Source: Pseudomonadota bacterium
GTDB taxonomy: Bacteria; Myxococcota_A; Bradymonadia; UBA4248
Direction of reading: 5' to 3'
Assembly: GCA_017421975.1 (NCBI GenBank)
Contig: JAFOHE010000015.1
Location: 1 to 33,388 of the forward strand
DNA length: 33,388 nucleotides
The notes under the pieces were generated by a model that worked only from the letters and a program-made list of their open reading frames with translations, did not search any database and had not been told where the DNA came from. Of this stretch, positions 5,912 through 32,847 are shown piece by piece. The translations under genes were made by a program, and so were the position numbers. Every line of letters begins with the position of its first letter. Within the stretch, counting starts at the first letter, position 1.

Positions 5912-5973
5912 ACGGCGGCGTATCTTGATAGCCGCCGTGGACGGCCGTATTGAGCGTGAGCGAGATAGGCCGT
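5912..5973. repeat. Two adjacent hairpins upstream of metK promoter
   Basis: ACGGCGGC (5912-5919) pairs with GCCGCCGT (5931-5938). Immediately after, ACGGCC (5941-5946) pairs with GGCCGT (5968-5973). Neither has a T-run. They lie between the divergent nucleotidase and metK genes, upstream of the likely metK -35 box, so they are not part of the metK leader transcribed from that promoter. The rest of this 310-bp gap holds only the metK promoter and ribosome site. Confidence 0.5.
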
Positions 5974-7339: not shown

Positions 7340-7456
7340 GGGGGCCGACGCCCCCTACGCGGCTGTTTTGCGCAAGCAAAGACATGTCGCGACACGTCTC
7401 TGTCTGCGCAAAATACGCCGCTACCCCCTGTGCGGGGGATACCCCCGCAACGCCCC
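7340..7456 (+). repeat. Intergenic three-hairpin repeat with bulged-C stem
   Basis: A left hairpin GGGGGC-CGAC-GCCCCC (7340-7355) is followed by a long central hairpin: GCGGC (7359-7363) pairs with GCCGC (7417-7421), and TGTTTTGCGCA (7364-7374) pairs with TGCGCAAAATA (7405-7415) with one G-T wobble. A single unpaired C at 7416 sits between the two 3' arms. The apex holds a further AGAC...GTCT / TGTC...GACA stem. A right hairpin TGCGGGGG-AT-ACCCCCGCA follows. A shorter relative lies at 24466-24520 on the minus strand. The rest of this 330-bp gap (to 7601) has only a small GAGCC-TTAT-GGCTC hairpin at 7519-7532 and no gene. Confidence 0.8.
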
Positions 7457-10783: not shown

Positions 10784-12179
<1,396 letters not shown>

Positions 12180-17616: not shown

Positions 17617-17719
17617 GTGCTATTTCGCTGCCGCTCCATACACACGGCTTTCCGTGCTATTTCGCTGCCGCTCCATACGCACGGTTTTCGGTGCTATTTC
17701 GCTGTCGCTCCATACGCAC
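17617..17719 (+). repeat. 37-bp tandem repeat, 2.8 copies
   Basis: Copies begin at 17617, 17654 and 17691 and are nearly identical (GTGCTATTTCGCTGCCGCTC then CATACGCACGG). They abut without spacers, so this is a minisatellite and not a CRISPR array. The surrounding 719-bp gap (17253-17971) has no convincing gene; it also has an ATGTTT-CCGA-AAACAT hairpin (17294-17309) near the mvaD start and a GTGGTTATTATA motif (17495-17506) that recurs at 26480. Confidence 0.9.
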
Positions 17720-17971
17720 CTCAGATGTGCGGTTTTGTGATTTGATCAGTCATAATGAGACTATAATCATGAAACTAAACATGATAACGTGCGTGTTCCG
17801 ATCGACAAAAAATAGAATATTGCTGCAAACTTTGTTATATCGTGCGCTCGTGTATCCGACTTAGTCTATATCGAGTACAACAAAAGACTGGATTTTTTCA
17901 AAATAAAGATGTTAGTCTTGGGCGTGAAATTGTGGGGGATTTTACAACGCTCTTTTGGGTTCGAGTACATC

Positions 17972-24393: not shown

Positions 24394-24465
24394 TATTGTC
24401 CATTTTTTAGGTCTGATTTCTGTGAGGTCGTTGTCACGTTGGTTTTGGTACCCACTTGGCAGAAC

Positions 24466-24520
24466 GAGGGGGTAGCGGCGTATGCCACAGGGCATAGCCG
24501 CGTAGGGGGAGACTTCCCCC
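24466..24520 (-). repeat. Bulged-C hairpin repeat, second copy
   Basis: Read on the minus strand, GGGGG-AAGTCT-CCCCC is followed by TACGCGGC, an inner stem TATGCC-CTGT-GGCATA, a single bulged C (24480), then GCCGCTACCCCC. Flanks and layout match the element at 7340-7456, but the inner stem differs in sequence and is far shorter. It lies between the MBL lipoprotein gene and tsaD. Confidence 0.75.
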
Positions 24521-26030: not shown

Positions 26031-26039
26031 TCGTATTGC

Positions 26040-26322
26040 CCCCCCGCTTTTCGCCTTTGGCTCAATACGCGAGGGTTCCGCTGCTTTTCGCCTTTGGCTC
26101 AATACGCAGCGTCGCGCGTCTATGTTGCGCCATAAGGCGCGCCATACGCCGCGCTTTTTTTTGCCCCCCGCTTTTCGCCTTTGGCTCAATACGCGAGGGT
26201 TCCGCTGCTTTTCGCCTTTGGCTCAATACGCAGCGTCGCGCGTCTATGTTGCGCCATAAGGCGTGCCATACGCCGCGCTTTTTTTGCCCCCCGCTTTTCG
26301 CCTTTGGCTCAATACGCGAGGG
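26040..26322. repeat. Composite tandem repeat, ~124-bp unit with inner 37-bp period
   Basis: GCTTTTCGCCTTTGGCTC followed by AATACGC occurs five times (starting 26046, 26083, 26170, about 26207 and 26293). Within a unit the two copies are 37 bases apart; whole units recur after 124 and 123 bases. Each complete unit then has a GC-rich hairpin and a T-run. Two full units and a partial third are present. Long minus-strand frames crossing it only reflect the repeat. Confidence 0.92.
26114..26161 (+). terminator. Repeat-embedded hairpin with T-run, first unit
   Basis: GCGCG (26114-26118) pairs with CGCGC (26150-26154); TATG (26121-26124) pairs with CATA (26143-26146) with a bulged C at 26147; an inner GCGCC-ATAA-GGCGC stem tops it, and a run of eight T follows. 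This could end the tsaD-OrfA transcript. The second unit repeats it at 26238-26285, where the inner arm GGCGC has become GGCGT, which still pairs by G-T wobble. Confidence 0.65.
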
Positions 26323-26349
26323 GAGTCTTCCTGATGCCTGACGCCTGAT

Positions 26350-26390
26350 AACTGACAACTGACAACTGACAACTGACAACTGACAACTGA
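26350..26390. repeat. 7-bp tandem repeat AACTGAC, 5.9 copies
   Basis: The heptamer AACTGAC repeats without interruption over 41 bases. Short heptamer arrays of this kind are known between genes in several bacterial groups and can change length by slippage. Confidence 0.9.
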
Positions 26391-32754: not shown

Positions 32755-32811
32755 TAATATGGGATTTGCGCTGCCTATCCATGCACCTTTTGGCGCATGG
32801 ATACGGCGCGC

Positions 32812-32847
32812 GCGTTGGCTATTGGCCAATAGCCAATACGCCAACGC
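32812..32847 (+). repeat. 15-bp hairpin with bulged C, containing a 22-bp palindrome
   Basis: GCGTTGGC (32812-32819) pairs with GCCAACGC (32840-32847), and TATTGGC (32820-32826) with GCCAATA (32832-32838), loop CAATA, with one bulged C at 32839. Bases 32815-32836 also form a perfect palindrome. The layout matches the hairpins at 7359, 24466 (minus) and 26114. Confidence 0.8.

Follow-up and report, generated by a model that had tools for sequence, protein, structure and literature searches.

Do hairpins with different arms, scattered over one bacterial contig, form a single family, and what could read them? This question is raised by positions 7340-7456 of the window, the whole stretch of 33,388 nucleotides analysed here, which makes up one entire contig; the draft genome has 384 of these and totals 3.63 Mb. 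The initial annotation described five hairpin copies with a single unpaired C and proposed that their fold is maintained, as in REP-type elements moved by a dedicated transposase or in a structured RNA/DNA motif.

Hairpin copies in the window

All five copies were present, and further hairpins of the same kind were identified that had been overlooked (Table 1). When the sequences were folded as single-stranded DNA, the common fold with its unpaired C was recovered at 24475-24501 on the minus strand (z -4.2) and at 32812-32847 (z -6.6), and the region 7351-7431 also folded strongly (z -4.5). The 26-kb copies were degenerate and gave the weakest fold (z -1.6). The hairpins at 32772-32808 and 32812-32847 form a head-to-tail pair, both in the same orientation. 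The G5/C5 hairpin noted beside both the 7.3-kb and the 24.5-kb copies is in each case part of a longer, composite repeat. Its flanks turn up again at numerous places in the source genome, and the repeat is also found in relatives including the sister genus (matches at query 11166-11232).

Table 1 Hairpins and composite repeats located in the window
Feature	Position	Strand	Description and basis
Bulged hairpin	5912..5938	-	ACGGCGGC TATC aa GATA [C] GCCGCCGT; absent from the initial annotation
Second hairpin in 5912-5973 array	5941..5973	-	ACGGCC TAT n14 ATA [C] GGCCGT; absent from the initial annotation
Composite repeat	7340..7456	+	GGGGG-n6-CCCCC-TAC, bulged hairpin, TACCCCC, then G5/C5 hairpin; from sequence, flanks at many loci
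Bulged hairpin	7359..7421	+	Outer GCGGC/GCCGC, inner TGTTTTGCGCA/TGCGCAAAATA, unpaired C at 7416
Nested palindrome	tip of 7359..7421	+	GACATGTCGCGACACGTC
Bulged hairpin, intergenic	17690..17720	+	GGTGC TAT n14 ATA [C] GCACC; absent from the initial annotation
Composite repeat, second copy	24451..24520	-	Variant, TCGTTCTGCCAAGTGGG on 3' side; from sequence, also in relatives
Bulged hairpin	24475..24501	-	GCGGC TATGCC ctgt GGCATA [C] GCCGC; unpaired C opposite 24480
Degenerate copy	26114..26154	+	T.C mismatch in outer stem, internal loops in inner stem
Degenerate copy, repeated	26238..26278	+	Within ~124 bp tandem unit
Imperfect hairpin	32772..32808	+	TATCCATGC...GCATGGATA [C], short outer stem; read by eye
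Bulged hairpin	32812..32847	+	GCGTTGGC TATTGGC caata GCCAATA [C] GCCAACGC; unpaired C at 32839

Two further repeats were observed in the window. Positions 26036-26390 hold the ~124 bp tandem unit with hairpin-like CGCTTTTCGCCTTTGGCTCAATACGC blocks, followed by (CTGACAA) repeats, and similar repeats occur in a related genome (G006). Long composite hairpins contain palindromes of the type RGACGT..ACGTCY nested within their tips, both in the window (7380-7399) and at another locus (L159:6709-6755 and L159:10456-10508), as if one repeat had entered another.

Anatomy and covariation of the hairpins

The source genome contains about 400-500 hairpins of one build, C-TAT...ATA[C]G: an outer stem (7-8 bp) that ends in a C-G pair, TAT facing ATA, an inner stem (about 6 bp), a loop that is mostly 3 nt long and often TGC, and a single unpaired C on the 3' side, with a total length of about 27-36 nt. 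That copies exceed chance genome-wide was evident from the exact pattern GCGGCTRT-N6..36-ATACGCCGC, which gave 81 matches as compared with 0 for the reversed pattern. GCGGC..GCCGC was nevertheless rejected as the defining pattern; it is too narrow, because the outer arms vary as well. The core patterns GCTAT-N4..34-ATACGC and GCTAT-N6..14-ATACGC gave 617 matches against 97 in the control and 417 against 26, respectively.

To compare this core with others, hairpins with each of the 256 combinations of a trimer and a 3' bulge base were tallied in a 414-kb sample of the source genome. TAT/ATA with C accounted for 60 hairpins, whereas the next core, an A/T run, gave 19 and the median over the 256 cores was 3; TAT/ATA with a bulged A, G, or T gave 8, 3, and 7 hairpins. 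A scan of own and related sequences without a fixed core again found C-T..A[C]G to be the commonest junction (73 of 342). A broader definition with any T..A[C] was discarded, as TAT was present in 69 of these 73. Strong hairpins with an unpaired C numbered 39 in the source genome and 79 in relatives, as compared with at most 4 for those with no bulge or with A, G, or T. The unpaired base thus has to be C. The pair below it was C-G in 112 of 115 hairpins.

The length of the outer stem was also restricted. Under a rule that excluded stems shorter than 6 bp, stems of 6, 7, 8, and 9 bp were found in 15, 47, 53, and 4 of 119 hairpins. A ninth pair was observed 13 times as compared with 23.9 expected from shuffles, only 3 of 1000 of which were that low. 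Stem length therefore looks as if it were measured, and an unpaired foot is favoured.

Pairing of the arms was investigated in a non-circular manner at 128 sites picked only by the 9-base core CTAT-N-ATACG. The next seven outer positions were paired at 71, 66, 56, 49, 41, 38, and 30 percent of the sites and position nine at 13 percent, whereas control cores stayed near 25 percent at every outer position; these counts are not to be read as probabilities, because neighbouring and orthologous sites are not independent. At least five of six further pairs were formed at 39 core-picked sites against 0-1 in controls, and other cores and other bulge bases showed no such extended outer pairing. When fixed-length sites from across the family were pooled (55 in all), pairing at outer positions 2-8 and inner positions 4-5 was above that in every one of 500 shuffles, and most outer positions showed each of the four Watson-Crick types; inner pair 6 says little, because it hardly varies.

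Orthologous places in two related genomes, whose genes are about 75-85 percent identical, gave a similar picture: arms and core were kept while loops and flanks had changed, and paired change was seen directly (CGCGTGC/GCACGCG versus CGCGCGC/GCGCGCG). Some hairpin sites were not common to both genomes. An array before one RAYT gene reads TATCGGGGCG/CGCCCCGATA in the source genome and TATCGGC/GCCGATA in two relatives. Maintenance of the fold through paired changes of the arms, as the initial annotation had proposed, is thus strongly supported. Neither of the two outcomes that the annotation had named as refuting, a copy number at chance level and a lack of covariation, was observed.

The hairpins also occur in arrays of two to four, mostly spaced by 0-9 nt and in either orientation. 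These arrays are arranged head to tail in 11 of 11 cases in the source genome, 16 of 17 in relatives, and 13 of 15 at other loci. Near-identical pairs were in no excess among the single hairpins of the source genome and in mild excess in G006. There is therefore no sign of recent movement of the source-genome hairpins outside the composite subfamily, which alone looks copied.

RAYT genes and competing explanations

The proposed link to REP elements and their RAYT transposases was borne out in part. RAYT-type Y1 genes were identified in five of the eight family genomes, including the source genome, whose gene (171 aa) matched NF047646 with E 1.6e-18 and 67 bits against an equivalog cut-off of 80. 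Three other family matches exceeded that cut-off (92.9, 92.7, and 80.4 bits), two of which carry another repeat. In an alignment of the family RAYTs, the best solved relative was TnpA-REP 4ER8, and the HuH and Tyr residues were invariant; the motifs are NHxH/DHIH and YIxNN, with long inserts between HuH and Y.

Hairpin arrays adjoin four independent RAYT loci. Three hairpins, the third imperfect, lie just 3' of the stop at G000:C157, and two with long loops lie just 3' of the stop at G002:C54. G000:C365, G001:C107, and G007:C275 share an orthologous array of three hairpins, partly imperfect, ahead of the start, and two imperfect hairpins precede the start at G001:C113, the distance of these 5' arrays from the RAYT start being about 18-130 nt. 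No adjoining array was found at G000:C335, G002:C239, or G002:C189. Arrays at four of nine independent RAYT loci, as compared with two or more hairpins within 135 nt at 10 of 271 background genes, gave P of about 2e-4, a value that is suggestive and not decisive because the comparison was framed post hoc and took in imperfect hairpins, identified by eye, at the RAYT loci but not in the background. Hairpins also cluster near gene ends regardless of RAYT.

Two RAYTs, G006:C16 and G007:C245, were rejected as hairpin-linked loci, since they sit amid a different coding repeat. At both loci (L259 and L260) a RAYT domain shares one open frame with restriction/methylation-like protein sequence, and the in-frame repeats on its flanks, APGYACVSPAKDAARG and kin, represent another family of REP-like repeats, one that is coding. 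A further repeat family, tandem units of the AGCTATAGGGCGGGTCTGAGACCCGCCC type (L164:550-1045), lies upstream of the RAYT gene of the source genome, on its other side.

We tentatively propose that the hairpins are REP-like sites at the DNA level, set by shape and one base and putatively read by an enzyme of the RAYT kind. As single strands, the hairpins form an outer stem no longer than 8 bp and a short inner stem, and the C is extrahelical, flanked by a C-G and a T-A pair. A RAYT-type (TnpA-REP) HuH/Y1 enzyme would bind this hairpin via the extrahelical C and the neighbouring pairs, contact the arms only as a helix, and act in the unpaired foot directly below the stem. Such recognition would leave the arm letters free to drift by compensated changes, with the core, the bulge, and the length of the stem remaining constant, and a RAYT may move the hairpins or may once have moved them. 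Depletion of the ninth pair fits a requirement for a single-stranded foot. Recognition by a RAYT-like enzyme is plausible and would accord with known Y1 enzymes that read one extrahelical base: the E. coli REP enzyme contacts C27, one extrahelical base on the 3' arm, and the IS608 enzyme reads the single extrahelical T17 in its hairpin (PMC8266576).

The rest of the RAYT claim stood less well. The hairpins carry no GTAG foot, and three family genomes (G003, G004, and G005) contained no RAYT despite 462-687 core matches, a family-RAYT profile giving only two weak partial matches there. In addition, a RAYT gene fragment (G001:C286; L282, about 65-100) holds an in-frame, canonical-looking GTAG...CTAC REP, GTAGAGACGTGTC..GCACGTCTCTAC. 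Its palindrome GTAGAGACGTGTCGCGGCACGTCTCTAC lies between the HuH and Tyr motifs and resembles the double-foot REPs in subclass 2.4 genes (PMC6006769). The RAYTs may therefore serve this GTAG REP rather than the bulged hairpins, which may be older relatives, targets, or neighbours of the RAYT-served element. Palindromes of the type seen in this fragment also occur in the tips of long composite hairpins.

There is a real chance that a protein other than a RAYT reads the hairpins. It is quite possible that they are sites maintained by the host through selection, where a cruciform or single strand is bound by a host protein with a chromosome function and RAYT genes are incidental neighbours in the same gaps. 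Full hairpin density in genomes without RAYT, hairpins kept at orthologous places despite diverging flanks, the absence of recent copies among single hairpins of the source genome, and the base-specific bulge are all consistent with this. A candidate protein was not found, however, and the arrays at four independent RAYT loci exceed the background. The lack of excess in the one sister-family genome also speaks against it. Among about 240 genomes sampled from the phylum, enrichment was restricted to one family of uncultured gut bacteria (eight genomes in one count, seven in another); copies were also present in UBA4248 and in additional RGIG bins. All remaining genomes, whether of the same class or from elsewhere in the phylum and including that of the sister family, were at or near the control level. 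A wider spread was rejected on densities of 0.09 hairpins per 10 kb outside the family versus 2.07 in family loci, among the matches listed.

A more radical form of recognition by shape seems somewhat doubtful: the site would lie almost wholly in shape (a stem of at most 8 bp, the extrahelical C, and the T-A/C-G junction), arm sequence would be ignored, and the reader might not be a RAYT. If it were true, hundreds of unlike sequences would function as one site.

An RNA-level role, as a stem-loop near mRNA 3' ends that is bound via its unpaired C and acts in end protection, processing, or termination, is unlikely. With genes called by a simple longest-ORF rule, under which some hairpins inside ORFs are doubtful, the hairpins are mostly intergenic and over-represented in convergent gaps, and their median distance to the closest gene 3' end is 48.5 nt. 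Their orientation shows a slight excess in the gene sense (31:17), and TTTT follows downstream in 12% versus 6% of the background. About one third nevertheless oppose the neighbouring gene, in which case the RNA has G on the other arm, and 88% lack a T run. Intrinsic terminators were rejected on TTTT within 10 nt in only 12 of 99 hairpins, a known structured RNA on the lack of any Rfam 15 match at gathering score in the window, and an mRNA element on an orientation that is only weakly tied to genes. A replication-strand signal was likewise dismissed, as no bias with GC skew was observed (42:50). As orientation shows no link with replication and only a weak one with transcription, the hairpins are probably read as DNA.

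Quasipalindrome correction alters both arms together, and template-switch repair of this kind could match arms without any function, the family being a mutational by-product; this is very improbable, since such repair is expected to erase the bulge, yet the unpaired C has persisted, hairpins that lack a bulge or carry another base there are rare, and the stem has an upper limit of length. Integron attC sites are read by shape and extrahelical bases, and an attC-like site of an integron-type integrase is scarcely credible here, as the TIGR02249 cut-off was reached in none of the eight family genomes, weak matches occurred in 14 of 14 control genomes, and the flanks hold no conserved motif.

The preferred RAYT-like reading raises a directly testable question, namely whether a single-strand HuH enzyme can use footless sites without GTAG and with free arms. 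Hundreds of natural compensated variants map what the reader needs, namely the extrahelical C, the pair on either side of it, and the length of the stem. Repeat finders seek common sequence and would therefore miss such a family; shape-defined sites may be widespread yet overlooked.

Comparison with known REP and recombination systems

The hairpins share with REPs that they are palindromes of 20-40 nt, present in many copies and mostly intergenic. They are not REPs in the accepted sense, because neither the foot nor a common stem sequence was found: a GTAG/GTGG or CGTC foot was absent, the flanks holding at most 0.22 bit of information per position and a weak 3' T preference, and 115 hairpins had 40 distinct 5-nt outer arm ends. 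Copies of the composite subfamily do have flanks in common. The inverted dimers of REPs, head-head or tail-tail, are not the rule, and the dispersed singles and arrays do not show the IS200/IS605 arrangement of hairpins at the ends of a transposase element.

REPs of RAYT/TnpA-REP subclass 2.2 (E. coli y, z1, and z2) are likewise short, intergenic, and high-copy, with a stem irregularity and a 3'-arm C (PMC8266576). They require a GTAG foot, have a common sequence, and form inverted arrays, whereas the bulged hairpins have no foot, two free arms, one extrahelical C, and head-to-tail arrays. The single extrahelical base is also the main recognition point in the subterminal hairpins of IS608 (IS200/IS605; T17; PMC8266576), but these have a fixed sequence and guide tetranucleotides and flank a mobile element, whereas the bulged hairpins are dispersed with no element between them. 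As in integron attC, structure and extrahelical bases outweigh sequence; unlike attC, the hairpins are much shorter, do not lie between gene cassettes, and are accompanied by no integron integrase.

The atypical structures beside genes of RAYT subclass 2.6 and class 3 resemble the bulged hairpins in adjoining Y1 genes, in being without GT[AG]G, and in having genomic copies elsewhere. They are described as weaker, with a CnGA foot in class 3, and no free-arm family with an extrahelical C is reported among them (PMC6006769). The open-access literature searched likewise yielded no account of a hairpin family whose arms are free and whose extrahelical C is fixed. The family RAYTs themselves have the motifs and inserts of subclass 2.4, whose REPtrons are double-foot with a REP in tnpA between HuH and Y (PMC6006769), and one gene fragment carries GTAG...CTAC there, whereas neither a GT[AG]G nor a C[TC]AC foot is present in the bulged hairpins. 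We file them as structure-defined, REP-like elements, and a REPtron-like arrangement occurs at several loci.
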